Source of the DNA: Borreliella garinii
Lineage (GTDB): Bacteria > Spirochaetota > Spirochaetia > JABEVK01
Reading direction: 5' to 3'
Length of the DNA: 34,892 nt
Assembly (NCBI GenBank): GCA_020720765.1
Contig: DYOB01000017.1
Span: 1 to 34,892, forward strand
Part shown: one piece after another, positions 4,468 through 26,058 of the stretch
How the letters are laid out: each line of letters starts with the position of its first letter
Numbering within the stretch: the stretch's first letter is position 1
Program-made: the position numbers and the translations under genes
Notes under the pieces: generated by a model
Told to the model about the DNA's origin: nothing
The model's database searches: none
What the model saw: only the letters and a program-made list of their open reading frames with translations

Positions 4468-5288
4468 AAACACATTACGGTTTTTTTGATGAAGCAAGTA
4501 AAAGGGAAATCCGACGCACCATTCTCAAAGCGGTTTGCATACCGGGGTACCAGGTTCCTTTTGCCTCGCGCGAAATGCCCGTCGCAAGAGGATGGGGAAC
4601 CGGGGGTATCCAAGTTACGCTATCCCTTCTCGGCCCCGGTGATGTCTTAAAAGTTATAGACCAGGGAGCTGATGATTCTGTCAATGCCGTCAATATAAAA
4701 AAACTCGTCGCGAAAACCTCCCCAGACATTCAGACGACGACTTCAACCGAAAAAGCAACACTGATCCAGTCCCGACACAGAATACCTGAACACCCGTTAG
4801 AAGAAGATCAAATTCTTATTCTCCAGGTTCCAATTCCAGAGCCCTTGAGATTTGTTGAACCCAGCGAGTATAAAACAAAGGTCCTACATTCAGAAAAGAA
4901 CTACAGCGGTGCCTATCTTTCCCTTCTGGAGGAAGTTCTGAGATACGGAAGAATGACAACCGGCGCGGATCACCCTGTTATGGTTGAAGGCGGTTACGTT
5001 ATGGCACCGAGTCCCATCCCCAAGTGGGACAATTTTAAAATGGACCGGAACCCCGCCCTTGTTTTATTCGGTGCAGGAAGGGAAAAGAAAATTTATGCCA
5101 TACCCCCTTTTACTTCCGTAAAGTCCCTGGATTTCGAGGATGTCCCCTTTGAAAGGGAAGACTTTAAGGGAGCTGTGTGCCGGATCTGTGGAAAATCCAA
5201 AGTTTTTCTCGATGAAATGATAGACTCCGGCTCGGGTTCTGTCACCTACCAATGCAACGACACGAGTTATTGCAAGGAAGAACGATGA
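4464..5288 (+). CDS. phnJ: C-P lyase radical-SAM catalytic subunit PhnJ
   Basis: GYQVPFASREMPVARGWGTGGIQVTLSLLGPGDVLKVIDQGADDSVNAVNIKK and the PhnJ cysteine pattern CX2CX21C followed by NDTSYC. Confidence 0.96.
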   Translation: MKTHYGFFDEASKREIRRTILKAVCIPGYQVPFASREMPVARGWGTGGIQVTLSLLGPGDVLKVIDQGADDSVNAVNIKKLVAKTSPDIQTTTSTEKATLIQSRHRIPEHPLEEDQILILQVPIPEPLRFVEPSEYKTKVLHSEKNYSGAYLSLLEEVLRYGRMTTGADHPVMVEGGYVMAPSPIPKWDNFKMDRNPALVLFGAGREKKIYAIPPFTSVKSLDFEDVPFEREDFKGAVCRICGKSKVFLDEMIDSGSGSVTYQCNDTSYCKEER

Positions 5289-6070
5289 CAGAACAAAAAC
5301 CAATTTTACGGGTTCGCAATCTCAAACAGAGTTATCAAAATGGCTCAGGAATAATCCACGCCTTGCGGAATGTCTCTTTTAATCTATTCCCGGGAGAAAT
5401 TTTGGGAATAGTCGGGGAAAGCGGTTCGGGCAAGTCCACTCTCATGAGAGCCTTGTACCTGGATGAAGTTCCCCTGGAAGGAGAACTATTCTTGGAAAAC
5501 ATCGAGGAAGGACTTACAAATATTTTTACCCTAAGTTCACAGCGGCGCAGGAAAATTAAAAACCAGGTCCTGGGAAAAGTGTACCAAAACCCACGCGCTG
5601 GCCTCAAGATGGACTTTTCAGCTCTTGCCAACGTATGCGAAAAAATGATCGATGAGGGAAACCGTAACGTCGGTAAGATGACGCAGAGGGGGCGGGAATT
5701 ATTGGGGGCGGTAAAGATTCCCCTGACCAGGGAGAAGGATCCTCCGAAGAATTTCTCCGGAGGGATGCAACAGAGGGTACAAATTGCTAAAGCTCTTTCC
5801 AATAATCCTCCCATTCTTCTACTAGATGAAGTAACAACGGGTCTGGATCTTTCTGTGCAGGCAAAGGTTTTAGACATTATCAAGGAACTGCGTCATGCGA
5901 TGGGAATGAGTATCATCATCGTCTCCCATGATTTGGCTGTTGTGCGTCTTCTTGCAGACCGGACCCTGGTGATGCTTAACGGTGAAATTATTGAACATGG
6001 GTTGACAGATCAAATACTGGAAGACCCCCAGCACCCCTACTCTCAAGAATTGGTCCAGTCATTACTGTAA
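5285..6070 (+). CDS. phnK: Phosphonate C-P lyase ABC-type protein PhnK
   Basis: Walker A GESGSGKST, signature FSGGMQQRVQIAKAL, LLLDEVTTGLDLSVQAKVLD. ATGA overlap with phnJ makes 5285 the likely start rather than 5252. Confidence 0.93.
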   Translation: MTEQKPILRVRNLKQSYQNGSGIIHALRNVSFNLFPGEILGIVGESGSGKSTLMRALYLDEVPLEGELFLENIEEGLTNIFTLSSQRRRKIKNQVLGKVYQNPRAGLKMDFSALANVCEKMIDEGNRNVGKMTQRGRELLGAVKIPLTREKDPPKNFSGGMQQRVQIAKALSNNPPILLLDEVTTGLDLSVQAKVLDIIKELRHAMGMSIIIVSHDLAVVRLLADRTLVMLNGEIIEHGLTDQILEDPQHPYSQELVQSLL

Positions 6071-6085
6071 GGAGAAAAAAGTCGA

Positions 6086-7300
6086 ATGAGAAGTTTAATT
6101 CAACAGGGTTCGCATAAAGAAACACGGATCCTAAGAGGTGGAAGAATCGTCACCCCTGACGGAATTCTTGAAGAATATGAAATACATATCAAGGATGGTA
6201 TTATTTCAGAAATACGCCCTGAAACAACGGAAGAAACTGAACATACCTTAAACCTCGCCTCCTGTTACATTTTACCGGGGCTCATCGACATCCACAGCGA
6301 CTATATCGAACATATGGCCGCTCCGAGGCCTACCGCTATGCTGAACATCCCCCTAGCGTTAAGGGAATGCGAAAGGGAACTGATTTCACACGGTATTACC
6401 ACCATGTACCATTCCATTTCCCTCCATCAGAGTACGGATTTCCCAGACAATCCTATCCGCCAGCCGGAACAGATCGACAAATTGGTTTCCCTTATCAGCT
6501 CCAGCCGTGTCGGTCTCCACCAGATCCACCATAGATTTCATGCACGCTTCGAGGTGGACAATTTCGGTATGGTAGAAAAAATCAAATGTTATATTCAAAA
6601 CGGAGATATTCACCTGATTTCTTTTATGGATCACACGCCCGGTCAAGGCCAATACCGCAATATGGAAATCTTCCGTAAAACCCTTAAAGGCTACCGTGCC
6701 GGAATTACAGACTCCGATGTAGAGAGTTTAGTCAAGGAAAGACAGACCAAAGAAAAGCTGAGTTTAAACACCCTAAAAGAACTGGCCGACCTCGCTTTGG
6801 CACACGACGTTGCAATAGCATCACACGACGACGACACCCTGACAAAATTGGGACTGATGAAGGAAATGGGCGTGACAATCAGCGAATTCCCCATAACCAT
6901 GGAAGTCGCCGTGGAAGCACGCAGGTTGGGGATGCATACAGTACTTGGTGCTCCTAACATACTTTTGGGCGGCTCTCATTCCGGAAACCTCAGCGCGGAG
7001 AAGGCCATCCTCGAAGGCGCTGTGGACACCTTGTGCTCGGACTACTACCCCGCTTCCATGCTCCACGCTGTTTTTCAGATGCACCAGCGCCATAATCTAC
7101 CGCTCAGCGACTTGGTGAATTTAGTCTCGCTCAATCCTGCACGGGCAGTGGGAATCGGGGATATGACTGGCTCGATAACCGTGGGCAAACAAGCCGACTT
7201 GGTTATCGTCGAGCTTCTACCGGACGGCTATCCTTTCGTCCGTGATGTTTTAGTAGAAGGCTATCACCTCTTTTCTTCACGCTATCGAGGAATCCTATGA
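6086..7300 (+). CDS. phnM: Alpha-D-ribose 1-methylphosphonate 5-triphosphate diphosphatase PhnM
   Basis: Amidohydrolase motifs [45 protein letters not shown]-like SD. Confidence 0.94.
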
Positions 7301-7923
7301 ACGAAAAAGTTTTAGGCATAGAGCCATTTTTTCATCCGGGGTCCCAGATCAGTCAAAGCACGTTTGGTGTCTACACCGAAATAGGGCCTGAAAACTATTT
7401 CGAGAACGTCGCCTTCGGTGATTTTTCGTACTCAGGCCTTCATTGCTTCCTACAAAACACCGAGGTGGGAAAATTTGTGAATATCGCCGCCATGGTCAGG
7501 GTCGGCCCTACCAACCACCCCATGGAACGCCCCACAATGCACCATTTCACTTATAGAAGAAAACTTTATGGATTCTCCGAAACCGACGACGCTGATTTTT
7601 TTCATCAAAGACAGAACAAAAAAACCATCATCGGACACGATGTCTGGTTGGGTCATGCTAGTATAATTTTACCTGGTGTTAGGGTCGGTGACGGAGCCGT
7701 TGTCGGAAGCGGAACGATAGTGACGAAAGATGTACCGCCTTATGCAGTCGTCGTGGGAAACCCGGCAAGGGTAGCCCGCCTCCGGTTTAACGAAAAGGAA
7801 ATTGACCAGTTAAAAAACCTTCAATGGTGGAATTGGCCTGTGGATGTCATTCAGAAAAGGTTGGATTCATTTTCCTTAAATATCAATGATTTCCTTGAGT
7901 TGTATTCAAAGGAGTTTGTATGA
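7297..7923 (+). CDS. Left-handed beta-helix (hexapeptide) transferase, phosphonate-locus family (DapH/PhnO-like)
   Basis: [53 protein letters not shown] hexapeptide repeats; embedded between phnM and phnL with ATGA overlaps. Confidence 0.88.
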
Positions 7924-8621
7924 ACCCGCTTCTTGAAATTCATAACCTCTCTAAAACATTTAAACTTCATGCCCAGGAAAGATCCATAGTCGGTTGTAAT
8001 AATATTTCCTTCAGTATGAACTCCGGGGATTTTATCGGGATTACCGGAAAAAGCGGCAGCGGTAAATCAACGGTTCTCAAAATGATATACAGAACTTACC
8101 TGCCTCAGGAAGGGGAAATATTCTACGAATCCCTACTCTGGGGAAAGGTCAGTCTCTCAACACTCGATGAACAAAAGATCCTCTACCTGAGAAAAAAAGA
8201 GATAGGGTACGTGAGCCAATTTCTCCATGTCATACCCAGGACAACGGCAAGGGAAATTATCGAAAACGCGGTTCTGGAATCGGGGGGACTACCCGACGAG
8301 GCGCACGTTGAGGCTGTCCGAATGTTGCAGCATTTTGAACTCGCCGAAAGTTTATGGGATTCTTACCCTCAGACTTTTAGCGGCGGTGAAAAACTCAGGT
8401 TGAACATCGCCCGAGCCATGGTGAAACACCCCAGGCTCTTACTCTTGGACGAACCAACTGCGAGTCTGGATTCGAGCTCAAAACAAAAAGTCAGGGTGCT
8501 GATAGAACAATTAAAAAATGAAGGTACGACCATGCTGGGGATATTCCACGACCTGGAGTTTATGGAAGGTTTATGCGACCGGGAGTACGCGATGAGTTCC
8601 GGAAAGGCGGCCCAAACATGA
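7920..8621 (+). CDS. phnL: Phosphonate C-P lyase ABC-type protein PhnL
   Basis: Walker [25 protein letters not shown], signature [27 protein letters not shown]. Confidence 0.93.
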
Positions 8622-9511
8622 AAGCCGACCTTCATATGCATTCGCGTTATTCTGATGGTTCCGAGTCCCTGGAATCCTTGATGGAGATGGCTGTTAGACG
8701 GGGACTCACCCACGTTTCTGTCACCGACCATGACTCTACCCGTAGCCAGTTGGCTGCCGCGGAAGAAGCGCATCGCCATGGATTGGGCTATATCACGGGG
8801 ATTGAGATTTCTGCCAAGGATCCCGTTTCCAAAAGAAAAGTCCATATTTTGGGTTACGGGTTTCCCCTTCCTTCCCCGCGTTTGGAATCTTCAGTTCATA
8901 CGATCCTTAAACAAAGAGACTCGATGACGAGAAGGCAGGTTCAGATTCTCAGAGATCTCGGTTATCCGCTTTCTATTTCGGAAGTGGAAGATGAAGCGGG
9001 AAATCTTACCGTCCTTTATAAACAGCACATTATGGCCGTACTCGCAAGGAAGGGAATTGCGGATGGATTAAGGGGTGATTTTTATCAGAAGACCTTTAAG
9101 AATGGGGGACCTTGCGATCTTGAAATCACCTATATCGATGCCACCTTGGCAATCCAAGCGATAAGGGAGGCAGGAGGTTTTCCTGTTTTAGCCCACCCAG
9201 GTCAGGGTGAGGTCCAGGACCTCCTCCCCTTCCTGAAACTATCGGGTTTAGCGGGGGTGGAACTCGAACACCCGGATAACCCGCCAGGACTGAAAGCAGA
9301 ACTCAGGGAATGGGCTACGCAACTTAAAATCATTCTTACCGGAGGCAGCGATTACCATGGTTTTTACGGAAACGAGCCCGAAGTTGGAAGTTTCCTTGCC
9401 CCTGATGTGGATTTATTGACAGAATGGGCATTTTGTACAATGGGTAAATTGAGAGATTTAGTTAAATGCTCATGCAATAATAACCATTTGTTAACACTGT
9501 CTCACAGATAA
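8618..9511 (+). CDS. PHP-domain phosphoesterase, probably phosphoribosyl 1,2-cyclic phosphate phosphodiesterase (PhnPP-like)
   Basis: PHP motifs ADLHMHSRYSDG, VTDHDS, GIEIS, VLAHPGQ, GGSDYHG; ATGA overlap with phnL sets the start at 8618. Confidence 0.85.
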   Translation: MKADLHMHSRYSDGSESLESLMEMAVRRGLTHVSVTDHDSTRSQLAAAEEAHRHGLGYITGIEISAKDPVSKRKVHILGYGFPLPSPRLESSVHTILKQRDSMTRRQVQILRDLGYPLSISEVEDEAGNLTVLYKQHIMAVLARKGIADGLRGDFYQKTFKNGGPCDLEITYIDATLAIQAIREAGGFPVLAHPGQGEVQDLLPFLKLSGLAGVELEHPDNPPGLKAELREWATQLKIILTGGSDYHGFYGNEPEVGSFLAPDVDLLTEWAFCTMGKLRDLVKCSCNNNHLLTLSHR

Positions 9512-9534
9512 TGATAGTTAAGAAAACGAATAAA

Positions 9535-9551
9535 CCGTCTCGTTGAGGCGG
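9535..9551 (+). other. Short intercistronic stem-loop between the C-P lyase and transporter genes
   Basis: ccgtctc-gtt-gaggcgg, 7-bp stem (one G-T), not followed by a T-run. Confidence 0.45.
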
Positions 9552-9577
9552 AGAAGTATTGAAAAAGGAAGGTCATT

Positions 9578-10591
9578 ATGAAAATAATGAAGGCTGCTCT
9601 TGTAGCAGCTATGGCGTTGAGTTTTTTTACTGGATGTCAGTCGGCGGCCACTGGTCCGATCCGTATTGTCTGGTACCCCAATGAATCAGGTGAAGAGCTT
9701 CTTACCGCCCGCGAAGAAATCGGTAAGATTATCACCGCTGCGACCGGCCGCGAAGTTACCCACCAGCTGACCACCGACTACGCTATCGCCATCGAATCCA
9801 TTGTCAACGACAATGCAGATTTTGCTTGGCAGGGCGCCCAGGGTTACGTTGAATCCCACGCGAAGAACGAAAAGATTCTTCCCCTTGTCGTCAACAGCGG
9901 TGAATCCGGGACCTTAAACGATGCTTTGTATTACTCCTGGTTATCAGTTCGTCTTGGTGACGAAGGCATGTACAAGACCGGCGAAGAGTATTCCATCCTT
10001 AACATCAAAGGCAAACCCTTTTCCTTCGTTTCCACCAGCTCCACTTCCGGCGGAAAAGTACCTTCTGCGGGTATCGTGAATTTTTTCAAGAAACTTCCCG
10101 AAACTGCCGCCATCACCCAGGAAGAACTTTGGGAATCCGGTCCTTTCTTCAGCAAGGTTCTTTTCGGAAGCTCACACCAGGGATCAGCCGTCAACCTTCT
10201 CAGCGGAGTCGCTGACGTAGCCGCCTTTTGTGACGCTTGTGTAGCCAACTATGTAGAATTTGTTTCCGGAACTGAAAACCGTCCCGGTGCCATCTACAAG
10301 GTAAAAGACGGAGCCGACGAGCCTTTCGATAAATACGAAGGCCAACAGTTCGTCATTATTTCCGTGACCCCCGTTCTGAACGCACCCTTTGTTTATAACA
10401 GCGCCACCATTCCCGCAGACCAGGTAAAGGCTCTTGTCGAAGCTTTCAGCTCTGACGAAGTCGCCAACAACCCCGCTGTTTTTACACCTGCCGGCGGATC
10501 TGTCAAAGGCCTTTTCAAGAAAAAAGCCAACGAAAGGTTCTTAGCAGTTGAAGATAGCTGGTTCCAGCCCATCCGGGATCTTTCAAACTAA
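9578..10591 (+). CDS. phnD: Phosphonate ABC transporter substrate-binding lipoprotein PhnD
   Basis: Signal peptide with lipobox FTGC; IRIVWYPNESGEE...; followed by phnC and two phnE. Confidence 0.9.
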   Translation: MKIMKAALVAAMALSFFTGCQSAATGPIRIVWYPNESGEELLTAREEIGKIITAATGREVTHQLTTDYAIAIESIVNDNADFAWQGAQGYVESHAKNEKILPLVVNSGESGTLNDALYYSWLSVRLGDEGMYKTGEEYSILNIKGKPFSFVSTSSTSGGKVPSAGIVNFFKKLPETAAITQEELWESGPFFSKVLFGSSHQGSAVNLLSGVADVAAFCDACVANYVEFVSGTENRPGAIYKVKDGADEPFDKYEGQQFVIISVTPVLNAPFVYNSATIPADQVKALVEAFSSDEVANNPAVFTPAGGSVKGLFKKKANERFLAVEDSWFQPIRDLSN

Positions 10592-10602
10592 GGAAGTACA
10601 AA

Positions 10603-11364
10603 GTGGCCCTCCTTCAAATCAAAAACCTGACTAAATATTATAAAGATGTTCTGGCTCTGAACGATGTCAGTTTTAAGGTAAAGGAGGGCGAATTCCTCAG
10701 TATCATCGGCCCTTCCGGCGCAGGAAAATCAACCCTCCTGCGCTGTATTAACCGCATGATAGAACCGTCTTCCGGTGAGGTTTTTTTTGAAGAAGCCGAT
10801 ATCACCAAACTCAAGAAAAATCAGATGCGCATTGTAAGATCCCATATCGGGATGATTTTTCAGCATTACAACCTTGTAACTCGTTTGACCGTCTTTGAAA
10901 ATGTCCTTCATGGCCGGCTGGGATATAAATCAACCCTGGACGGCGTCCTTGGGAACTACACAGAGAAAGAAAAAAAGATGGCCGTTGAGATCTTAGGGAA
11001 GATCGGGCTTGAAGACCAAATGTACAAGCGCTGCGATACCCTGAGCGGCGGTCAAAAACAGCGTGTTGGCATCGCCAGGGCCCTGATACAGCACCCGAAA
11101 ATTATTCTCTGCGACGAACCTATTGCAAGTCTGGACCCCAGCTCGGCTAAAATCATTATGGACCACTTGAAACGCATTTCCAAGGAAATGGGCATTACCG
11201 TACTTTGCAACCTTCACCAGGTGGACGTGGCCATGAAATATTCGGACCGCATTATCGGTGTAAACTCAGGCCAGGTGATCTTTGAAGGGGGGCCTTCGGA
11301 ACTTTCGAAAAAACTTATTTACAAAATCTATGGGACCGAGGCCGGCGACCTCATCATGGATTGA
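10603..11364 (+). CDS. phnC: Phosphonate ABC transporter ATP-binding protein PhnC
   Basis: GTG start; Walker A GPSGAGKST, LSGGQKQRVGIARALIQHPKIILCDEPIASLDP, LHQVDVAMKYSDRIIG. Confidence 0.93.
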   Translation: MALLQIKNLTKYYKDVLALNDVSFKVKEGEFLSIIGPSGAGKSTLLRCINRMIEPSSGEVFFEEADITKLKKNQMRIVRSHIGMIFQHYNLVTRLTVFENVLHGRLGYKSTLDGVLGNYTEKEKKMAVEILGKIGLEDQMYKRCDTLSGGQKQRVGIARALIQHPKIILCDEPIASLDPSSAKIIMDHLKRISKEMGITVLCNLHQVDVAMKYSDRIIGVNSGQVIFEGGPSELSKKLIYKIYGTEAGDLIMD

Positions 11365-11365
11365 T

Positions 11366-12151
11366 ATGGAAAACAATCTTTTTTTCCAGCGCAATTTGAG
11401 AATGTCCCTGTTTATCCTGTTAATGGTAGTCTTAACGGTTATCAGTGGTATTGCAACCGAATTCTCGCTCATTAAGGCGGTTCTGGCGATTCCAAAATCT
11501 TTTATCTGGATGCTGAATAATTTTATCCCCGATGAAGACGCTCTTACAAGATTGCCAAAGATTATAAACCGTCTTTTTCAGACCATTTGGGTTTCCATTA
11601 GCGCTACAGGCATAGCTGCCATTTTTGCCTTGGGTTCAGCGGTCTTAGGTTCAAAAACAACACGACCAACAAAATGGGTCTCATCAGTTTTTCGAACTAT
11701 CGCAAGTGTTTTTCGGAATATGCCCCTAGCAGTCTGGGCCATGGTCTTTCTATTCAGCTTTGGACAAAATATGTTTACCGGTTTTCTTGCCCTCTTCTTC
11801 GTCACCTATGGATTTCTGGTCCGCGTCTTTATTGAATCCATCGATGAGGCGAGTTCGGCGAGTGTTGAAGCACTCAGAGCCACAGGTGCCACGTATTTTC
11901 AAATCATCACACAAGCGGTGATTCCCCAGACCCTTCCCCAGATTATCAGCTGGATCCTCTTCGCCCTTGAAACCAATATCCGCAGTTCTACCTTGGTGGG
12001 TATTCTTACTGGAACTGGAATTGGATTTTTGTTTAATACTTTTTATAAATCTCTCAACTATAAAGCAGCCGGTCTTGTAGTGATTGCGATTGTTGCGGTA
12101 GTTCTTGTGATCGATTTCGTTTCCGACAGAATCAGGAAGATCATCCTATGA
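11366..12151 (+). CDS. phnE: Phosphonate ABC transporter permease PhnE (1)
   Basis: BPD permease EAA loop SVEALRATGATYFQIITQAVIPQTLPQIISW; ATG at 11366 just after the phnC stop. Confidence 0.9.
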   Translation: MENNLFFQRNLRMSLFILLMVVLTVISGIATEFSLIKAVLAIPKSFIWMLNNFIPDEDALTRLPKIINRLFQTIWVSISATGIAAIFALGSAVLGSKTTRPTKWVSSVFRTIASVFRNMPLAVWAMVFLFSFGQNMFTGFLALFFVTYGFLVRVFIESIDEASSASVEALRATGATYFQIITQAVIPQTLPQIISWILFALETNIRSSTLVGILTGTGIGFLFNTFYKSLNYKAAGLVVIAIVAVVLVIDFVSDRIRKIIL

Positions 12152-12993
12152 ACGCACCAGCTATATTTGATAAAAATGGAAAAATACGAGTAAGACAATT
12201 TACCCTCAACTCTTTCTTGATCAATCTGGTTTTTTGGGCTCTTATCCTGGGTTCAATCCTTGGTCTTTTTCTTATCGATTATGAAGGTAAAGACCTATTT
12301 GCCGCTACTATTAAAGCTCTGGATGACTTTAAGGTTATGTTTGGCAATCCCCAAGTGGGCGGAGACGGGAGTATTCTAAGTTTTCTACGAAACCTGCGTG
12401 ACGTTGGTATCACCCTGGCCCTCGCTTTTCTTACCACGCTTATTGGCGGAATTATCGCGCTTGGCCTTGGCCTTCTAGCTGCTAAAAACCTTTCAAGCAA
12501 ACTTCAATCGACTCTGATCAAGCAGTTTGTCGCTTTTATACGTGCGGTCCCAACCGAACTCTGGGTTTTTATCTTTGCCATTGGTGCTGGTCTAGGAAGT
12601 GTCGCAGCTGTCGTGGGTATGACATTCCACACCATAGGGCATCTTATTAAGTCCTACTCCGAGGCTTTCGAAGAAATCGACGAGGGCGTTATCGAAGCCT
12701 TAAAAGCCAGCGGAGCCAACTGGCTTCAAATAGTTTTTCAGGCGGTTCTGCCTTCTAGTCTCACGTATATTTTATCCTGGACCTTCGTGCGTTTTGAAAT
12801 CAATTTCGTTATAGCGGTTGCCATGGGTGCTGCAGCTGGTGCCGGTGGAATAGGGTTTGAACTTTCTCAGTCGGCATATTATTACGCCAACATGAAACGC
12901 GTGGGTGCTGTAGCGCTTCTTATCCTGGCAGTCACAGCAATATTGGAAACCATTGCGGTTAAGCTTAAAGAAAAATTTCATCTTCAAGGATAA
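12148..12993 (+). CDS. phnE: Phosphonate ABC transporter permease PhnE (2)
   Basis: EAA loop VIEALKASGANWLQIVFQAVLPSSLTYILSW, multi-TM; ATGA overlap with the previous permease. Confidence 0.9.
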   Translation: MNAPAIFDKNGKIRVRQFTLNSFLINLVFWALILGSILGLFLIDYEGKDLFAATIKALDDFKVMFGNPQVGGDGSILSFLRNLRDVGITLALAFLTTLIGGIIALGLGLLAAKNLSSKLQSTLIKQFVAFIRAVPTELWVFIFAIGAGLGSVAAVVGMTFHTIGHLIKSYSEAFEEIDEGVIEALKASGANWLQIVFQAVLPSSLTYILSWTFVRFEINFVIAVAMGAAAGAGGIGFELSQSAYYYANMKRVGAVALLILAVTAILETIAVKLKEKFHLQG

Positions 12994-15299: not shown

Positions 15300-18200
15300 A
15301 TGAGCAACTCCCCAAGTATAGATAAATTGAAAGAACTTTATCAAGTGATGCGTCAGGCTCGAGAAGCGGATCTTATCGAACAGGAATACACAGGAAGAGG
15401 CGAGGCTTTCTTCCACGTCAGCGGCGCAGGACACGAAGCCAGTGCGGCCCTGAATTCATTTCTCGGCCCCCAAGACTGGCTCCATGTACATTATAGGGAC
15501 AAAGCCCTGATGATGGCACGGGGAATCCCTCCAAGTCAATTTTTTTTAGCACTGTTTAACAAAGACGGGTCCCACAGCAGGGGCCGTCAAATGAACGCCC
15601 ACATGAGTTCACCCGAACTTAAAATCATGAGCTTAACGGGTCCGGTAGGGAATAATGCCCTCCATGCGGTCGGAGCAGCGAATGCAATAAAAGATAACCT
15701 CGGGAAACCCATCGTCGTTTGCTCTCTCGGTGACGGCATGACTCAACAAGGTGAAGTCCTCGAAGGCGTGGCCCACGCAGTGAGGGCAACCCTTCCTGTC
15801 CTCTTTCTCATTCAGGATAACCAGTTTGCGATTTCCACAACTACCGCCGGGAAAACATTCTATGACAGACCAGAGGGTCAGGCTAAAGAATTCTACGGAA
15901 TCCCTATCCGACGGGTAGACGGAAGAGACCCGATAGTGGCATGGAATGAATTTGAAAGTACTGTCGCAGATATAAGGGCGACAAGAAAACCTGCAATTTT
16001 AGTCTTCTATGTCGATAGGCTCGACAGCCATACGAACGCCGATGACCACCGTGTTTATAGGCCCGAGGAAGAACTTACTGCTCTCCGCTTAAAGAGCGAC
16101 CCCATATTAAGGCTTCAAAAGCATATGGAGGGTCTGGGTGTTCCTTCAGACTATTTTGATAAAACAACCGAATCTTTACGTACCGAACTCCGCCTGGAAG
16201 CCAAGAAGGCCCAGCGTAGCACCGAGCCGAGTGCGACCCATACAGCATTAAAACCCTTAGATGCCAGATTCTTTGACCCGAGCCAGGAGTATAGGGGCAA
16301 CCCGCTTCCCGATGCTGAGAAGCTGAATATGCTGGAGGCCATCAGGGAAACTCTAAAAAAACGAATGAAGAAGGACGAAAGGGTAACCCTTTTCGGCGAA
16401 GACCTAGAAGACCCTAAGGGCGATGTTTTTGGTATAACAAAAGGTTTGAGTACAGCTTACCCAGGACGTGTCAATAACTCCCCACTCGCAGAAGCAAGTA
16501 TTATCGGTTTGAGTATAGGTGAGGCAATGGCTGGAAGACGTCCCGTCGCCTTCCTCCAGTTTGCCGATTTCCTTCCCATAGCTTATAACCAGATAGTCAG
16601 CGAACTCGCCAGCATGTTCTGGAGAACCGACGGGGGCTGGCAGGTTCCGGTTATCGTGATGATCACCTGCGGAGGATACCGCCCCGGTTTGGGCCCCTTT
16701 CACGCTTCGAGTTACGAGGCTCTAGCCGTCCATACACCGGGTGTTGATGTGATGATGCCATCCACTGCGGGTGACGCAGCGGGACTGCTCAACACCGCGT
16801 TTGAAAGCGGACGCCCTACCCTTTTCTTCTATCCGAAAAACTGTCTGAACGACCCGGCACAAGCGACAAGCATGGATGTTGAAAAGCATTTTATACCCTT
16901 AGGAATAGCAAGAAAGGTAAGAGCAGGCCGGGATATCACGATGGTAGCCTGGGGAAATACGGTTTCCTTATGCCGGAAAGCCGCGGATCTTCTAGCGACA
17001 GCAGGTGTAGAGGCTGAAATACTTGACCTGCGAACCCTTCTACCTTGGGACCGTAAACAAGTTCTGAATTCCGTTGAAAAAACACGGCGTATGGTTGTTG
17101 TCCACGAGGACAACAAGAGTTCGGGTTTGGGTGCAGAAGTAATGGCGGAAATTCTCGAGTATTCTTCTTTTCCCATCCAGGCGAAAAGAGTGGTCAGGGA
17201 CGATACCTTCGTACCATGTAACTATGCAAATCAACTCGAAGTTCTTCCCGGTTATAAACGAATCGTAGATACTTGTGTGGAAATGTTATCGGGTACAATC
17301 ACATGGAGACTGGACGCAGCGCCAGTAGCGGGAACCTTCCTCGTACCCGCCATCGGGTCCAGTCCTTCCGATGAAAGCATCACAGTAGTCAAGTGGAATA
17401 TTTCCAAGGGAGCTTCGATAGAAGAAGGACAACTGATAGCCGAACTCGAAGCAGATAAGGCAGCCCTTGATCTCAGATCACCAGTTGGCGGCTTGGTCGA
17501 GGAAATATTAGTCCCCGAAGGCGACACAGTGGGCGTCGGTGCAAGTTTACTCATGGTAAGGTTAGCTGGGGACGATGTGGTCATCAAACCCATCACCCGT
17601 GAAGAACCGGGTACTCCCATTATCACCGGGATCAATCTCAAACCCACAAATCAAAAATCAGAATTGGCCGGAACTACACCCGGTCTTCCAAGGCTCGCTC
17701 AGGTGGCGGTGAAAAAAGGTTCAAGGATCATGACCAACGAGGCCATAAGCCAGCTCTGCCCAGCCTGGGGAGCCGACGAAATACTTAAACGTGTAGGAAT
17801 AGAAACAAGACCATGGGTTGCCGAAGGTGAAAATGCACTAACCCTATCCGTAGCGGCTGTTAAAGATTTATTGAATAAAACCCATATTTTACCTCAGCAT
17901 TTAGATATGATTATATGTGCGACTGGGACCCCCTTACATACAAGCCCAAGTCTTGCTGCCATGGTTCAAAACCAGCTTTCGCTAGAATATGGTGCACTCG
18001 AAATGACCTGTTTCGACTTCAGCGCAGCGTGTTCAGGTTATATCTACGGTCTTCAGATAGCCCATGATTTTTTAGCACAAAAGCCGGACGGTAAGATACT
18101 CCTTATTACAACTGAGGTTCTCAGCCCCAGGATCGATGTCAACGACACAGGGACGGCCCCAATCTTCTCTGATGCCTCAACAGCAAGCCTTCTTGTGGGA

Positions 18201-18647
18201 CCCCAGGTTACCGAGTTTGAGGGAGGCTTTACCTTCCGACGGCCTGTTATGGGGGCAAAAGGCGAAGACGGAAATTACCTCAAAGTCCCGGTCAGTACCC
18301 AGGAATTTATTGTGATGGATGGGCCCAAAGTTTACCTCGAAGCAGTCGAAGCCATGACCAAGATGACTAAAGACGCCCTTGTCGAGGCTCATCTGAATAC
18401 GGACGACCTTGACCTTGTTATTCCGCACCAGGCCAACCAGAGGATTATCAACGCTGTAAGGCAAAAACTCAAACTTCCAGATGAGAAAATCTTCAGCAAT
18501 ATCCGTCACAATGGAAATAGTTCAAGCTGTACCATCCCGATAGGTATTCTCGATGTTTGGAAAGATATCAAACCGCGATCCCGCGTGGCTCTCGTTGCTT
18601 TTGGCGGTGGATTTACCTACGGCGCTGTCATCATGGATCATGTATGA
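15300..18647 (+). CDS. Fusion protein: 2-oxoacid dehydrogenase E1 alpha + E1 beta + lipoyl domain + 3-oxoacyl-ACP synthase III
   Basis: TPP motif GDGMTQQGEV...QDNQFAIST (E1alpha); E1beta segment RVTLFGEDLEDPKGDVFGITKGL...RVNNSPLAEASIIGLSIGEAMAGRRPVAFLQFADF; lipoyl motif ELEADKAALDLRSPVGG (Lys720); KASIII active-site Cys911 (SAACSGYIYGLQ), His1043 (IPHQANQRI), Asn1073 (NGNSSS). Confidence 0.9.
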   Translation: MSNSPSIDKLKELYQVMRQAREADLIEQEYTGRGEAFFHVSGAGHEASAALNSFLGPQDWLHVHYRDKALMMARGIPPSQFFLALFNKDGSHSRGRQMNAHMSSPELKIMSLTGPVGNNALHAVGAANAIKDNLGKPIVVCSLGDGMTQQGEVLEGVAHAVRATLPVLFLIQDNQFAISTTTAGKTFYDRPEGQAKEFYGIPIRRVDGRDPIVAWNEFESTVADIRATRKPAILVFYVDRLDSHTNADDHRVYRPEEELTALRLKSDPILRLQKHMEGLGVPSDYFDKTTESLRTELRLEAKKAQRSTEPSATHTALKPLDARFFDPSQEYRGNPLPDAEKLNMLEAIRETLKKRMKKDERVTLFGEDLEDPKGDVFGITKGLSTAYPGRVNNSPLAEASIIGLSIGEAMAGRRPVAFLQFADFLPIAYNQIVSELASMFWRTDGGWQVPVIVMITCGGYRPGLGPFHASSYEALAVHTPGVDVMMPSTAGDAAGLLNTAFESGRPTLFFYPKNCLNDPAQATSMDVEKHFIPLGIARKVRAGRDITMVAWGNTVSLCRKAADLLATAGVEAEILDLRTLLPWDRKQVLNSVEKTRRMVVVHEDNKSSGLGAEVMAEILEYSSFPIQAKRVVRDDTFVPCNYANQLEVLPGYKRIVDTCVEMLSGTITWRLDAAPVAGTFLVPAIGSSPSDESITVVKWNISKGASIEEGQLIAELEADKAALDLRSPVGGLVEEILVPEGDTVGVGASLLMVRLAGDDVVIKPITREEPGTPIITGINLKPTNQKSELAGTTPGLPRLAQVAVKKGSRIMTNEAISQLCPAWGADEILKRVGIETRPWVAEGENALTLSVAAVKDLLNKTHILPQHLDMIICATGTPLHTSPSLAAMVQNQLSLEYGALEMTCFDFSAACSGYIYGLQIAHDFLAQKPDGKILLITTEVLSPRIDVNDTGTAPIFSDASTASLLVGPQVTEFEGGFTFRRPVMGAKGEDGNYLKVPVSTQEFIVMDGPKVYLEAVEAMTKMTKDALVEAHLNTDDLDLVIPHQANQRIINAVRQKLKLPDEKIFSNIRHNGNSSSCTIPIGILDVWKDIKPRSRVALVAFGGGFTYGAVIMDHV

Positions 18648-19214: not shown

Positions 19215-19721
19215 ATGAAAATAAAATAGATAATTGAGATATTGGACTCACTTCTGAATCTAGAAAAGAAGTTTCTAATTTTTTAAACGTCTTACTTGCC
19301 GACCTACATATTTATTGGTCTAAGCTTCACAACCTTCATTGGAATGTGACCGGACCCAATTTTTTTTGCACTTCATTCCAAACTTGAAGAACTCTACGAC
19401 CAGGCGAACGAGGACCTCGATGCCGTTGCGGAAAGAATTCTTATGTTGGGCCACAGACCCCTTGCAGCACTGAATGAATTTCTCAATAAAACCGCAATGA
19501 AGGAGCTGGAGAGCAGAGAGTACAAGGGAGAAGAAATTATAGAAATCGTTTTAAATGATATGTCATTTCTTCTCAAATCCTTACAAAAGGGGTAACCTTA
19601 GCCCAAAAAAATGGCGATGAAGAAACTGTAGATATCCTCATTGGTTACATTTCCTCTGCAGAAAAAATATATGGATGTGGAGAAGTATGCTTTAAAGGCC
19701 TATTCCGACTTTTCCCAGTGA
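19215..19721 (+). pseudogene. Frameshifted Dps/ferritin-like (DNA-starvation protein) pseudogene
   Basis: Piecewise translation gives SRKEVSNFLNVLLADLHIYWSKLHNLHWNVTGPNFF / ALHSKLEELYDQANEDLDAVAERILMLGHRPLAALNEFL / VTLAQKNGDEETVDILIGYISSAEK / YMDVEKYALKAYSDFSQ*, broken by indels at T8 (~19370), G4 (~19590) and A6 (~19665), plus an early TAG after the ATG. Confidence 0.85.
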
Positions 19722-20299
19722 AGACCCCTCACTGATACGTGTGGAGGATTGAGAAACTGTTTTAACCGAGGATCCGAAAGGAACTCGGCTTTCTTTTTTA
19801 GTTGATTCTGGTAAAGTTCTACGGGTATTGATGTCACGGCGACTTTTCCAGGATCAAAACCTTCTACAAAGAATTCCAGCCTTCCTTGATTAATCTCTTT
19901 GAAAATTAGAGAGACATTCTTGTGCATTTTGAGTAAGAATCCAAATTTTAAATATTCTATCACTTGATCATCCAGACCTTCTCTCCATAATAAAACTTTT
20001 TCAGCGAGTTCAGGGTAACCAACCGTTAAACGATTCACCTTTTCCTCAAAAGTGTAAGTTCCCGCCAGAACCTGCTCGCGATACTCCTCGGGTAGAAACA
20101 AAACGCAGAAATCGCCATTTACTGTGGAAATAATAGCCCTTTCCTCCAGCTTATGGACAAGCCCGCAGGCGGGACAGGTGAGGTAAAAAAGCTCACCTTT
20201 TAGAAGTTTTCCAAGAATACCTTCCGGACCGTCCAGGAGAAAGTGGTCAGGAAAAGTATGAATAATCTGCTCCCCGCAAAGACATTCGTAAGTGTTCAT
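19700..20299 (-). CDS. CpXC-domain protein
   Basis: N-terminal CLCGEQ...FYLTCPACGLVH zinc-binding pairs. Confidence 0.72.
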   Translation of the reverse strand: MNTYECLCGEQIIHTFPDHFLLDGPEGILGKLLKGELFYLTCPACGLVHKLEERAIISTVNGDFCVLFLPEEYREQVLAGTYTFEEKVNRLTVGYPELAEKVLLWREGLDDQVIEYLKFGFLLKMHKNVSLIFKEINQGRLEFFVEGFDPGKVAVTSIPVELYQNQLKKKAEFLSDPRLKQFLNPPHVSVRGLHWEKSE

Positions 20300-21657
20300 C
20301 CGGCCCGCCCCAGAAGAAAAAGAACATCGCTAAAAACAGAGAAGAGAAGTAATGAAACAATGATAAACACGCCAACCTGTTGAAATCTCAGCATCGTAAG
20401 GGGCTTGAGGTGCTTTCTACGCAGGAGTTCAGCGAAACTCACAAGGATAAGCCCTCCATCCAAGGCTGGAATGGGAAGAAGATTCATTACAAAGAGGGCT
20501 ATTCCAATAAGACTAAAAAGTTGGGCAATATTGGCAAAACCCAACTCAGTGGTCTCGATAAAACCCTGTGCTGCGGCTTGCCCGAAAATATAGGTGGTCC
20601 TTATGGGCCCTGAGACGGCTCTGTCGAGATTTTTCCCCTGGAAAAGTCCAACGAGCGATCGAAGACCTTGTTTGATAACCCAAAGGGTTTTGGAAAAACT
20701 AAACTCAAAAGCCTTTAGAGGGTTAAGCCCAGGACGGATTATAGTAGGAGGGTCAAAATTAAAACCAAAGATCATTTCTCCTGAATTACCGAGCTCGGGA
20801 CGGAGCTTAAAAGAAAGTTCCTGCCCATCCCTAATAACAAGAACCTGGTACTCAGCAAGCTTCTTCTCGAGTTCGGGTTGAATCTGCCCCAACGAAATAA
20901 GTTTTTGGTTGTTCACTTGGAGAATTCTGTCACCAGTTACGAACCCGGCTCTCTCCGCTGGACTCCCAGGTGTCACTGAACTGACCAGAGGTTCTTGAAA
21001 AGGATTGACACCAATGATATAGCTTCCTTCCTGAGAAAGCACGGGAGTCACCTCGGTAAAACCGAAATTTCCATCCCTGGAGTATCGAATTTTAAGTGTC
21101 CTGCCGCCGGAACCCGAAACAAGACTCTGAAGGTCGTCAAAGGTATAAATAGCTTGACCGTCGATTTCAATCAGTGTGTCGCCTCTTTGAAGTCCTGATT
21201 CATCCACGGGAAACCTTTCGCCTTCCACCCTATCCTGCCAGAAAATTCTTGAAGGAAGTTCTTTTACAGGATAACCGGTCATTCCCAGAATAAAATAGAG
21301 AAGAATTGCAGTGATAAGGTTTGCGAAAGGCCCAGCAAATCCAATAACAATACGCCGCCAAGGTGCCGCAAAATAGAAACTCCCAGGTTCAGGGACAATG
21401 TCCGTTTTATTCTCCAAGGCTTTCTGAAGATCGTGTTCACCTTTCATTTTACAGTATCCGCCCAAGGGCAAAGCAGAAAGCCGAAACTCCGTTCCTAACC
21501 AAGGGCGTTTAAAAAGAACCGGTCCCCAACCCACCGAAAATGCTTCAACCTTCACCCCTAAAAACCTAGCCGCAAGGAAGTGGCCGAATTCATGGATGGT
21601 GACGAGAATACTCAAGCCCAGTATTCCTAAGAGGATAAAGAGAAATGATGTCATCAC
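20296..21657 (-). CDS. rseP: RIP metalloprotease, site-2 protease family
   Basis: TIHEFGHFLAAR (HExxH), PDZ-like region, NLLPIPALDGG motif; located after cdsA. Confidence 0.93.
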   Translation of the reverse strand: MMTSFLFILLGILGLSILVTIHEFGHFLAARFLGVKVEAFSVGWGPVLFKRPWLGTEFRLSALPLGGYCKMKGEHDLQKALENKTDIVPEPGSFYFAAPWRRIVIGFAGPFANLITAILLYFILGMTGYPVKELPSRIFWQDRVEGERFPVDESGLQRGDTLIEIDGQAIYTFDDLQSLVSGSGGRTLKIRYSRDGNFGFTEVTPVLSQEGSYIIGVNPFQEPLVSSVTPGSPAERAGFVTGDRILQVNNQKLISLGQIQPELEKKLAEYQVLVIRDGQELSFKLRPELGNSGEMIFGFNFDPPTIIRPGLNPLKAFEFSFSKTLWVIKQGLRSLVGLFQGKNLDRAVSGPIRTTYIFGQAAAQGFIETTELGFANIAQLFSLIGIALFVMNLLPIPALDGGLILVSFAELLRRKHLKPLTMLRFQQVGVFIIVSLLLFSVFSDVLFLLGRAG

Positions 21658-22502
21658 ATACCCAGCCTTTTCATCTGATCAAGATAAAGAAAATAAACAG
21701 GAGCGGCAAAGAGCAAGCTATCGATCGAGTCCAGCATGCCGCCTCTGCCGGGGATGGCCGTCCCAGAATCTTTAAGGCCGGAGCTTCTTTTCAACGCAGA
21801 TTCAAAGAGATCACCGAGTATGGTTGCTAATCCAACTGCGGTTCCAAAGACCCCTGCGTAAACCATTGAACCGAAGACATCGGGTCTTAAGTAGGCAGCA
21901 GTGCAGAGGATAACCGGTGAAATGATAAGACCGCCTATAAAACCTGCAAGACTTTTATTGGGACTGACCCTCAGAAGAACTTTTGATTTCCTCCCGAATA
22001 AGTTTCCGGCAACGTATGCGCCGGCGTCATTCCCTAATGTCACCAGAAGAAAAACTAGAAGGTACAGTGAGGCCTGGGGAAAACTGCTTATTTTAACCAA
22101 AAAGTACGAGAATAGACCGGGGTAGATCAAAATAGCCAAGTTACCGGTAACTTTATGAACGATAGACTCCAAGGAAGGAGTTCTGTAGGCGAAAACGTGC
22201 CTGGAGAAAACGATGATGATCAGCAAGGCGATAATCGTAAAAAAATGCCCCTGCTCCAACCAGCCGGCTTTTTCTGCGTAGCCAAAAACAGGCAACAAGG
22301 CACCAAAAAGCGGTGTTAAAAATCTGTTGATGGGAAAGCCTTTTATTTCAAGGATCCCTGCCATCTCCTGTGCTCCCACAATAGAAGCCCAAACAATTAA
22401 AATATTGATAACAAGGTGGAGTTGGAAATCCCAAAATACGACAAACATAAGGGCTGGAAATACGGTAAAAAAAAGAAGAAGGCGGGCAAGAAAGCGCTTC
22501 AT
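21654..22502 (-). CDS. cdsA: Phosphatidate cytidylyltransferase
   Basis: SPNKSLAGFIGG... and C-terminal KRSSGLKDSGTAIPGRGGMLDSIDSLLFAAPVYF signature. Confidence 0.93.
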   Translation of the reverse strand: MKRFLARLLLFFTVFPALMFVVFWDFQLHLVINILIVWASIVGAQEMAGILEIKGFPINRFLTPLFGALLPVFGYAEKAGWLEQGHFFTIIALLIIIVFSRHVFAYRTPSLESIVHKVTGNLAILIYPGLFSYFLVKISSFPQASLYLLVFLLVTLGNDAGAYVAGNLFGRKSKVLLRVSPNKSLAGFIGGLIISPVILCTAAYLRPDVFGSMVYAGVFGTAVGLATILGDLFESALKRSSGLKDSGTAIPGRGGMLDSIDSLLFAAPVYFLYLDQMKRLGM

Positions 22503-23182
22503 TCTCCCCCACCGCCAAAATTTCTGATACGTTCCGAGTATTCTTTTATGGACTTATCAAATTCCAGTGTGGTGAAATCCGGCCAACAACGATCGCTAAA
22601 ACAAAACTCAGCGTATGCCGCCTTCCATAACATAAAATTGCTTAATCGTTTCTCTCCGGCTGTTCTAATAACCAAGTCAAGGTCGGGCAATTCGGGATGA
22701 TCGAGAAAAGCACAGATATCCGAGTTAGGAGGTGCTCCCGAGAGATGCCATTTTTTAGCTGCACGTAAGATTTCATCCCTACCGCCGTAATTGATAAGAA
22801 GGTTTACCGTGAGTTTCGTGTTATTTTTTGTCGTTTCGCCAACTTCGCTGATATCCTTTTGGATATCAGGTGGGAGTGCGGAGATATCTCCACTATGCAA
22901 CACACGAATGGAGTTCTCTTCGTAGAATTTCATTTCTTTTTTTAAACTCTGGCGTAGGAGACCCATAAGAAAAGACACCTCTCTTTCGGTTCTTCTCCAA
23001 TTTTCAGTGGAAAAAACGTAAAGGGAGAGAAAGGGAATACCAAGATTGGCACAGTGCAGGATTAATTCTTTTGCGCGTCGGAGTCCTTCTGCATGACCTT
23101 CATTCCGTGGAAGGCCACGGGCGTTTGCCCAGCGACCATTTCCATCCATAATGATTCCGAGGTGCTGCGGCAGTCGAGCCAA
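22499..23182 (-). CDS. uppS: Undecaprenyl diphosphate synthase
   Basis: HLGIIMDGNGRWANARGLPRNEGH, YVFSTENWRR, DLVIRTAGEKRLSNFMLWKAAYAEFCF. Confidence 0.94.
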   Translation of the reverse strand: MARLPQHLGIIMDGNGRWANARGLPRNEGHAEGLRRAKELILHCANLGIPFLSLYVFSTENWRRTEREVSFLMGLLRQSLKKEMKFYEENSIRVLHSGDISALPPDIQKDISEVGETTKNNTKLTVNLLINYGGRDEILRAAKKWHLSGAPPNSDICAFLDHPELPDLDLVIRTAGEKRLSNFMLWKAAYAEFCFSDRCWPDFTTLEFDKSIKEYSERIRNFGGGGE

Positions 23183-23737
23183 TCAGACCTCCATAATTTC
23201 TTTTTCTTTATCCGCGACGACGTGGTCCACTTCTTTCACATAATGATCGGTGAGTTTTTGAAGGTCTTCCTGGGCTTTTTTGGATTCATCTTCAGTAATA
23301 TCACCGTCTTTCTGTTCTTTTTTTATACTCTCAAGGGCGTCACGGCGAATGTTTCTGACCGCAACCCTTATAGATTCAGCCATTGATTTAGCCTGTTTTA
23401 CTAAATCCTTCCTTCTCTCTTCTGTGAGGGGAGGAAAATTCAGTCTGATGACTTTGCCGTCATTGCTGGGGGTGATTCCTATTTCTGAGGCTAGAAGTGC
23501 TTTTTCGATATCTGTCATCACTCCCTTATCCCAAGGCTGTATGACGACCATCCGCGCTTCCGGAACTGAAATATTGGCAACCTGGTTTAGTGGCGTTTTA
23601 GTACCATAAGCGTCGACCATTACTCTTTCGAAAAGGGCTGTGGTAGCTCTGCCTGTCCGAAGTGTAGCGAACTCGTCTCCCAAATTTTTGAGAGACTTTT
23701 TCATTTTGACCTCAGCTTCTTGTCTGGAAAGACTCAT
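23183..23737 (-). CDS. frr: Ribosome recycling factor
   Basis: LATLRTGRATTALFERVMVDAYGTKTPLNQVANISVPEARMVVIQPWDK... typical RRF. Confidence 0.95.
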   Translation of the reverse strand: MSLSRQEAEVKMKKSLKNLGDEFATLRTGRATTALFERVMVDAYGTKTPLNQVANISVPEARMVVIQPWDKGVMTDIEKALLASEIGITPSNDGKVIRLNFPPLTEERRKDLVKQAKSMAESIRVAVRNIRRDALESIKKEQKDGDITEDESKKAQEDLQKLTDHYVKEVDHVVADKEKEIMEV

Positions 23738-23738
23738 C

Positions 23739-24569
23739 TTAGCCTCCTATGGCCATCATGCCCATAGCCTTTAATACGAACTCACAATTCAATTCTTTAG
23801 AAGCAACTTCCGCAGCTTTCTCCACGGAAATCTTATCATCTTTTAAGTAGGCCTGCTTTAGGAAAACAATTTCATTGAAATGTTTATTGAGCTTCCCTTC
23901 AATGATTTTTCCCAGCGCTGCCTCAGGTTTTCCAAGACCTTCCGCTTGGACCCGGAAGATACCTTCTTGTTCTTTTTTATACTCTGCCGAAATGTCGGCG
24001 TCAGAAAAGAAGGTAGGATCGTTTGCGACGACATGGAGGGCGAAATCCTTAGCGGTCTGGATCACCGCCGGGTCGGAAGGTGATTTCCCCGTGACTTTAG
24101 CGGCTACGTACGAGCCTTTGCGGCCCTCGTCACCGTGGAGGTAGACAAATGCCACGTCATCAGAAGCGAGAGCTCTAAAAACAGCTTTCTTTAAGCCGAT
24201 GTTCTCTTTAATAACCGAACCGATATTGGCAAGGTCCGCATTCTGGGTTTCATTGAGCTCGGTAATCCCTGAATCTGCGATTTGTTTAACGAGCTTCTTT
24301 CCAAAATCTGCAAAGGTTTCGTTTCTAGCCACAAAGTCCGTCTCACAGCTTAAAAGGATCATGGCGAGTCCTTTAGAACCTATAGTACCGAAGACACGGC
24401 CTTCATTGGCTTCTCTTCCCGCACGCTTTGCAACGGAGGCTAGACCTATTTCCTTCAGGTGTCTTTCGGCCTTCTCAAAATCGCCACCGGAAACTTCGAG
24501 GGCCTTCTTACAGTCGCCGAAACCGGCGCCGGTAATATCACGTAGTTTTTTTACATCAGCAGGACTCAT
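23739..24569 (-). CDS. tsf: Elongation factor Ts
   Basis: VKKLRDITGAGFGDCKKAL N-terminus, LLSCETDFVARNE. Confidence 0.95.
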   Translation of the reverse strand: MSPADVKKLRDITGAGFGDCKKALEVSGGDFEKAERHLKEIGLASVAKRAGREANEGRVFGTIGSKGLAMILLSCETDFVARNETFADFGKKLVKQIADSGITELNETQNADLANIGSVIKENIGLKKAVFRALASDDVAFVYLHGDEGRKGSYVAAKVTGKSPSDPAVIQTAKDFALHVVANDPTFFSDADISAEYKKEQEGIFRVQAEGLGKPEAALGKIIEGKLNKHFNEIVFLKQAYLKDDKISVEKAAEVASKELNCEFVLKAMGMMAIGG

Positions 24570-24578
24570 GGTTACTCC

Positions 24579-25382
24579 TTAAATATCTTCGTCTTCTTCA
24601 TAGGTAATAGTCGTTAATTCCTCGTCCTTCGGGGCCATAGGAATATCACCCTGGGTAATGTTTTCGTCTTCCTGTAGCGAGTCGATCACCGTCAAACCAA
24701 TCTCATTATCCGCTTCTACAACAGCATTTGCAATGATCTGGGCAAAGAGGCTGATGGCCCTGATGGCATCGTCATTGCCTGGAATCGGAAAGGTGATCCC
24801 TTCTGGGTTGCAGTTTGTATCAACAACCGCGATCACCGGGATCCCTAGGGTATTGGCTTCTGCCACTGCGATAGCCTCTTTTTTAGGGTCAATAATAAAG
24901 ATAATTCCGGGAACTTCCTTCATATCCTTGATACCACCCAGGGTCTTCTCAAGTTTTTCACTTTCTTTCTGGAGCTGAGAAACTTCTTTTTTCGTCATAT
25001 GACCAAAAGTTCCGTCAATTTCCATCTTTTCGATTTTTTTAAGTCTGAGAATCGAACGTTTGATGGTTGTAAAGTTGGTCAACATTCCGCCTGGCCAACG
25101 GTTTTTTACAAAGTACATGCCACAGCGCTGTGCTTCAGATTCAATGGCTTGTTGAGCTTGTTTTTTTGTCCCGACAAAAAGAACCGATTTCCCTTCAAGA
25201 ACAGCCTTACGAACGGCGTCGTAAGCTTCTTTTATGGCCTGAATCGTCTTCTGCAGGTCAATGATATGGATCCCGTTGCGTTCAGCGAAGATAAATTTCT
25301 TCATCCGGGGATCCCAGCGTTTCGTCTGGTGACCGAAATGTACACCCGACTCCAATAAGTTCTTCATGGTCACTACTGCCAT
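24579..25382 (-). CDS. rpsB: 30S ribosomal protein S2
   Basis: [46 protein letters not shown]; the 25490 start in the ORF track is upstream of an SD (aaggag), so 25382 is preferred. Confidence 0.95.
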
Positions 25383-25455
25383 GTGAGTCTCCTTTCCCTC
25401 CGCGTTGCCGCGGTCCTTCTCAGTTATCTCAGCCCAGGGCCGGAATGTCAGACAC

Positions 25456-26058
25456 CTAAGTATCCGCGTATATTGTAGCGAGTATTTCATAAAACACTCG
25501 GATTGGCAAGCCTACCACGTTGGAAAAGCTTCCGTGAATTTCTTTCACTAGGATTTCACCTGATTCTTGGATACGGTAACCGCCCGCTACGCCCATCCAT
25601 TCATCCGTGGAAAGGTAGAAATCTATCAGTTCAGGTTCCAGTTTTGAGAATTTTACCTTAGATATCTCGTGCCTTACCACTGTCTTTTTATTTCTTTTCA
25701 CACAAAGCCCGGTAATAACCTCGTGGGTTCGCCCGGAAAGTGCTTTTAAAAAACCCGACGCTTCCCGGACATCACGAGGCTGCCCCAAGATCTTCCCATC
25801 CAGGAGTACCGTTGTATCGGCGCATAAAAGCGGACGGGGGTCTTCAGGGTATAGTTTTTTGAGGGACTCGGCTTTTTCCCTGGCTAGGAATACGGCGAGT
25901 TTTTCAGGTGCTACGCCCGAGGCAAGCTGTTCCTCGTCCAAATTGTGCGATTGAACTGAAAAAGATAATCCAAACTTTTCAAAGTACTGTCTTCTCCGGG
26001 GCGAGCCGCTCCCGAGAATCCAAGATTCGCTTTGAGCAAGTGCCAGAACGCCTTTCAT
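25456..26058 (-). CDS. maf: Maf-family nucleotide pyrophosphatase
   Basis: [50 protein letters not shown]. Confidence 0.92.

Follow-up and report, generated by a model that had tools for sequence, protein, structure and literature searches.

What reaction is catalyzed by a single polypeptide in which both halves of a 2-oxoacid dehydrogenase E1 are followed by a lipoyl domain and by a 3-oxoacyl-acyl carrier protein (ACP) synthase III (KASIII) domain? This question is raised by an open reading frame (ORF) in contig DYOB01000017.1 (GenBank assembly GCA_020720765.1) of Borreliella garinii (GTDB lineage Bacteria; Spirochaetota; Spirochaetia; JABEVK01), of which the whole 34,892-nucleotide stretch was analyzed and is referred to here as the window. 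A first-pass annotation had proposed that the lipoyl arm of this protein hands its acyl group straight to the KASIII cysteine, without free acyl-coenzyme A (CoA). Judging from domain content, residue conservation and phylogeny, the fusion is probably a self-contained, CoA-independent condensing enzyme acting on a 2-oxoacid and malonyl-ACP, for which we offer the name putative CoA-independent 2-oxoacid:malonyl-ACP synthase.

The ORF runs from ATG to stop without an internal stop codon and encodes 1115 amino acids (aa). The Pfam search suggested by the first-pass annotation placed E1_dh, Transket_pyr, Transketolase_C, Biotin_lipoyl, ACP_syn_III and ACP_syn_III_C in this order, each above its curated cut-off (Table 1), thereby bearing out the one intact chain of two E1 halves, lipoyl domain and KASIII that had been described. 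The lysine of the described DKA motif was located within EADKA as Lys720, and the KASIII residues reported as intact, Cys911, His1043 and Asn1073, aligned with C112, H244 and N274 of Escherichia coli FabH, the reference sequence being identical to 1hn9. Lys720, these three residues and the E1 residues His244, Glu398 and His468 were invariant in the 81 aligned fusions. The claim that no E2 acyltransferase core lies between the lipoyl and KASIII domains also held, as neither the E2 core (2-oxoacid_dh, PF00198) nor the peripheral subunit-binding domain (PSBD; E3_binding, PF02817) was matched by Pfam in the 1115-aa fusion, even at E ≤ 5. An AlphaFold2 model (mean pLDDT 92.0, pTM 0.71) contained E1-like and KASIII folds, with a TM score of 0.94 for the KASIII part against Aquifex FabH (2ebd) and of 0.91 for the E1beta part against Thermus branched-chain 2-oxoacid dehydrogenase (BCDH; 1um9). 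The least confident stretch of the model (residues 784-793, low pLDDT) lay inside the linker between the lipoyl and KASIII domains, whose length of 45-83 residues across the family would be ample for a swinging lipoyl domain. The KASIII part scored 220.6 bits against the curated fabH model, below the cut-off of 292.1, and the E1 part scored far below the cut-offs of every named E1 family in NCBIfam. The best of these E1 models were those of pyruvate dehydrogenase (PDH), and the best solved relative was the BCDH E1beta 1um9.

The fusion was present in 68 of 395 sampled Spirochaetia genomes, belonging to 15 families as counted from the listing; some of these copies are truncated at contig ends, and intact copies were found in several single-contig genomes (G013, G031, G038). 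A scan of named genomes returned 294 relatives, and the architecture counts given here rest on the best 80, in which the fusion was essentially full length (L066 being cut by a contig end). These 80 came from eight phyla, namely Spirochaetota (37), Planctomycetota (21), Verrucomicrobiota (8), Kiritimatiellota (6), Pseudomonadota (3: Accumulibacter twice and Marinobacter halodurans), Lentisphaerota (3), Cyanobacteriota (1) and Sumerlaeota (1). Many of the hosts are metagenome bins, so that an isolated occurrence, for instance in the cyanobacterium, may reflect a binning error. The search of other genomes called for by the first-pass annotation has thus yielded at least 80 named loci, and their patchy spread over eight phyla suggests transfer. 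In the closed 3.78 Mb genome G052, two copies of the fusion were observed (L156:826-4342 and L157:1171-3393), both interrupted by frame changes; the system can therefore be lost. When the ratio of nonsynonymous to synonymous substitutions (dN/dS) was calculated against the nearest copy, synonymous sites were saturated. No description of the fusion was found in the literature searched, which comprised the full text of open-access papers.

In FabH of the E. coli type, the adenine of CoA is sandwiched by Trp32 and Arg151 and is in contact with Thr28 (PMC4606726). Trp was found at the position of Trp32 in 0/80 fusions, the residue being Asp in 61, Glu in 9, Ala in 7 and others in 3; Arg151 was replaced, mostly by Phe or Pro, Thr28 was lost too, and FabH position 87 was Thr or Ser. 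The equivalent of Arg249 (R1048) was retained in 80/80 fusions, and the catalytic triad was unchanged. In contrast, stand-alone FabHs from fusion-bearing Spirochaetia genomes retained both Trp32 and Arg151 (23/23), and, as a control outside the Spirochaetia, Trp32 was present in the top-scoring KASIII of each of 17 other genomes with the fusion (17/17). Because Trp32 is missing from the fusions and kept in the main FabHs, the fusion KASIII appears to have departed from ordinary acyl-CoA use, and the fused lipoyl domain would be the obvious new acyl donor.

A two-gene form was found in six Spirochaetia genomes (G016, G018, G020, G043, G044 and G068; in G044 the genes are on different contigs). 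Here, a single-chain E1 of approximately 660 aa is followed by a protein of approximately 500 aa that consists of a lipoyl domain, a subunit-binding-like segment and KASIII. Of the five full-length copies, two exceeded the E3_binding cut-off (6.3e-9 and 2.8e-7), and a similar motif beginning SPR was visible in the others, so that the second protein reads as an E2 chain with KASIII in place of the catalytic core. The position of Trp32 was Tyr in 6/6 of the operon KASIIIs. The two forms co-occurred in none of the genomes (0/6 operon genomes among the 68 with the fusion), six being too few for a test of exclusion. In the E1 tree, the operon E1s grouped with ordinary E1s, and a single clade of operon and fusion E1s was rejected (p-AU 0.0001, with a program warning of long branches; the E1 row LPK_G043 was left out of the final tree tests). 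In the unrooted KASIII tree, the fusions were split from both other groups at 100/100. On the best reading of these trees, the coupling of lipoyl domain and KASIII would have arisen at least twice.

The closest E1s to that of the fusion, 37-39% identical in a search of plasmids, were from Streptomyces and are encoded directly upstream of a polyketide synthase/non-ribosomal peptide synthetase (PKS/NRPS) megasynthase; fusion E1s and Streptomyces E1s formed one clade (100/97.8). The megasynthase starts with a lipoyl domain, 2-oxoacid_dh and a phosphopantetheine carrier (Pfam), followed by a ketosynthase (read from sequence), and this order was read in L192 and L193. Such a start is likely the starter-loading arm of streptogramin-like clusters, which the genes near the Streptomyces E1 appear to resemble. 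In the published account, pristinamycin II assembly begins with the loading of isobutyryl-CoA on SnaE1 (PMC6963833). The fusion E1 thus seems to belong to a branch that feeds acyl groups into carrier-protein pathways, and because it is related to clusters that likely load isobutyrate, a branched 2-oxoacid (such as 2-oxoisovalerate) might be somewhat favoured over pyruvate as its substrate.

As a whole, these observations lead us to propose the following sequence of reactions. The E1 part, with its intact residues, would decarboxylate a 2-oxoacid on thiamine pyrophosphate (TPP) and reductively acylate the lipoyl group on Lys720. The mobile lipoyl domain would then swing to KASIII and pass the acyl group to Cys911, a step suggested by the fusion itself, by the missing CoA site and by the two-gene form. 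The intact pair His1043/Asn1073 would drive decarboxylative condensation with malonyl-ACP to 3-oxoacyl-ACP, and the dihydrolipoyl group would be re-oxidised by the ordinary E3 of the cell (the E3 of the window genome scored 528 bits as lipoamide_DH). The net reaction would be 2-oxoacid + malonyl-ACP + NAD+ -> 3-oxoacyl-ACP + 2 CO2 + NADH. Direct transfer from lipoyl domain to KASIII is favoured because of the loss of the CoA clamp, the independent lipoyl-KASIII operon and the loading-type E1s of Streptomyces taken together. We lean, if only slightly, towards the fuller view that this is an oxidative, lipoyl-dependent 3-oxoacyl-ACP synthase, that is, a chain start free of CoA thioesters in which a ketosynthase has replaced the E2 core, and that it evolved at least twice.

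Several observations weigh against the CoA-independent condensing enzyme. A separate E2 core was present in 53/53 fusion genomes checked (21/21 in Spirochaetia, 32/32 elsewhere), so that transfer through CoA may still occur. The central idea of the first-pass proposal, a handover from lipoyl arm to Cys911 without free acyl-CoA, is backed in part by the three lines of evidence above. The same annotation had held that a separate E2 core in complex with the fusion would contradict it. Contig C106 of the window genome does carry a complete PDH operon that includes an E2, but with its own E1alpha (463 bits, above the cut-off) and E1beta, together with E3 and a lipoate ligase homologue, and no link of this operon to the fusion was found. 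Nearly all fusion genomes checked also hold another KASIII, and fatty acid initiation would therefore not need the fusion; as nearly all have a normal FabH, a role of the fusion in fatty acid synthesis is uncertain. With separate E2s everywhere and another KASIII nearly everywhere, the fusion is an addition and not a replacement. Trp32 was also absent from three more divergent, specialised KASIIIs of fusion-bearing genomes, and its loss would indicate a change of donor without identifying lipoyl as the new one. The operon KASIIIs retained Arg151, and the unrooted KASIII tree is compatible with either relation between fusion and operon KASIIIs. Finally, Salinispira pacifica has iso-C15:0 (PMC4511686); if G052 is this species, the fusion would be dispensable for iso-branched fatty acids.

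The same lipoyl-to-KASIII chemistry may serve a special lipid, pigment or secondary metabolite instead of general fatty acid synthesis. We consider this a serious possibility at somewhat less than even chances, an estimate that overlaps with that for the condensing enzyme, where the pathway is left open, and is not to be added to it. The patchy distribution suggestive of transfer, the retention of ordinary FabH in nearly all fusion genomes, the sister E1s inside PKS/NRPS clusters and the two broken copies of G052 would all fit such a product, but inspection of the window showed no biosynthetic cluster around the gene, and none of the neighbouring gene families was recurrent across phyla.

It is unlikely that the fusion channels its product through CoA, with the fused lipoyl domain serving a separate E2 core (for example, that of the PDH operon on C106) and the resulting acyl-CoA being used by KASIII as in a normal FabH. 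The fusion has no PSBD for docking to an E2 complex, and its CoA-adenine residues, which FabHs in the same genomes retain, are gone in 80/80 sequences; on the other side, it shares the Cys-His-Asn triad and the Arg249 equivalent with normal FabH. At least one E2 core is available in every fusion genome checked, but the E2 genes are located elsewhere, with their own E1, and at the loci compared none was recognised among the recurrent neighbours of the fusion. We hold it to be just as improbable, or marginally more so, that the KASIII part is an acyltransferase only, which would pass the lipoyl-bound acyl group to the phosphopantetheine of ACP and leave condensation to another ketosynthase, as the E2-ACP arm of Streptomyces appears to do. 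Some KASIII relatives do act as acyltransferases, and the closest E1s sit in a loading system with lipoyl-E2-ACP; however, KASIIIs turned acyltransferase usually lose part of the His/Asn pair, and the decarboxylating pair His1043/Asn1073 was invariant in the 81 sequences. An accidental or assembly-born joining of two unrelated enzymes can be dismissed, given the intact fusion in G013, G031 and G038 and the same domain order in eight phyla.

In the window, the neighbours of the fusion gene are 5-FCL, DUF6657 and flavodoxin genes, and an E2 core is not part of the operon. No operon partner was conserved across phyla among the fusion loci compared, and a single gene therefore seems sufficient; the only widely recurring neighbour was a divergent aconitase-like gene, named from its sequence and not by family search, at 19 spirochaete loci (L034, L038-L046 and others). 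Two further roles were considered and rejected: that of the only E2-free route (E2-less fusion genomes, 0/53), and that of the sole KASIII, as another PF08541 match was lacking only in G053 and G412 (the genome of L085), neither of which is closed. Elsewhere in the window, positions 1496-12990 hold a phosphonate C-P lyase operon (GntR regulator, PhnG, H, I, J, ABC proteins, amidohydrolase and PHP-domain protein) with a phosphonate ABC transporter. A Dps/ferritin-like coding stretch seen by eye at 19230-19710 (+) is readable only across frames and is thus broken or mis-sequenced, and an rpsB-tsf-frr-uppS-cdsA-M50 protease run occupies 19700-25490 (-), with no pyrH between tsf and frr.

Table 1. 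Features of the fusion gene in the window, and related loci in other genomes.
Feature	Position	Strand	Evidence or remark
Whole ORF, E1alpha-E1beta-lipoyl-KASIII fusion, 1115 aa	15300..18647	+	same architecture at 80 named loci
E1alpha domain (E1_dh, PF00676, aa 15-310); TPP motif G144-D145-G146...N174; catalytic-type His244	15342..16229	+	Pfam, 131.7 bits
E1beta domains Transket_pyr (aa 341-516) and Transketolase_C (aa 537-647); Glu398 (TPP activation) and His468 conserved	16320..17240	+	Pfam
Lipoyl domain (Biotin_lipoyl, PF00364, aa 680-751)	17337..17552	+	Pfam, 59 bits
Lys720, predicted lipoylation site, in EADKA	17457..17459	+	invariant in 81/81 fusions
Lipoyl-to-KASIII linker (aa 752-799), at the place where an E2 chain has PSBD and core	17553..17696	+	
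KASIII domain (aa 800-1113; ACP_syn_III, PF08545, aa 905-966; ACP_syn_III_C, PF08541, aa 1029-1112)	17697..18638	+	Pfam, 87.7 bits for ACP_syn_III_C
Glu827, position of E. coli FabH Trp32 (CoA adenine stacking)	17778..17780	+	alignment
Cys911, KASIII nucleophile	18030..18032	+	alignment
Thr950, position of E. coli FabH Arg151 (CoA adenine clamp), replaced in fusions	18147..18149	+	alignment
His1043, KASIII triad	18426..18428	+	alignment
Asn1073, KASIII triad	18516..18518	+	alignment
E1 + lipoyl-(E3-binding)-KASIII loci	L158:1263-4781 (G020), L180, L181, L182, L183, L184, L185		
Streptomyces linear plasmids, single-chain E1 then PKS/NRPS megasynthase	L192:14956-32091, L193:14905-31935, L194:11953-25953		

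If the proposed reaction is correct, a ketosynthase could take its acyl group directly from lipoate as well as from CoA or ACP, and in bacteria 2-oxoacids derived from amino acids or glycolysis could enter acyl chains without passing through CoA. A compact two-reaction machine would then be contained in one protein, with representatives in eight phyla (Planctomycetota, Spirochaetota and Verrucomicrobiota among them), and would provide a ready tool for chosen starter units (for example, iso-branched ones).

Among known systems, the alpha2beta2 E1s of BCDH and PDH (Thermus BCDH, 1um9; Bacillus PDH, 1w85) share with the fusion the E1alpha and E1beta folds, the TPP motif, His244, Glu398 and His468, whereas the fusion carries both subunits in one chain, has its own lipoyl domain, and bears KASIII instead of docking to E2. 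FabH (Aquifex, 2ebd; E. coli, 1hn9) shares the KASIII fold, the Cys-His-Asn triad and Arg249; unlike FabH, the fusion has no Trp32, Thr28 or Arg151, has Thr or Ser at position 87, and is attached to its own acyl donor. E2 chains (lipoyl-PSBD-core) likewise have a lipoyl domain ahead of the catalytic domain that receives the acyl group, and the two-gene spirochaete version keeps the PSBD, but the core of the fusion is KASIII, in which the predicted acceptor is a cysteine and then malonyl-ACP, not CoA. The Streptomyces E1 with its lipoyl-2-oxoacid_dh-ACP-ketosynthase arm, probably of streptogramin type, belongs to the sister E1 clade and, to judge from its domain order, would also feed a 2-oxoacid-derived acyl group through a lipoyl domain straight into a carrier-protein pathway; in contrast to the fusion, it keeps an E2-type core and loads a PKS/NRPS ACP, with no KASIII in the stretch examined. 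The fusion thus has the TPP-dependent E1 and the lipoyl lysine of a 2-oxoacid dehydrogenase complex and not its E2 core or PSBD, and it has the triad and fold of FabH and not the Trp32/Arg151 clamp or the curated fabH score. We would accordingly file it under neither, and suggest that in function it amounts to the first half of a 2-oxoacid dehydrogenase coupled to FabH chemistry.

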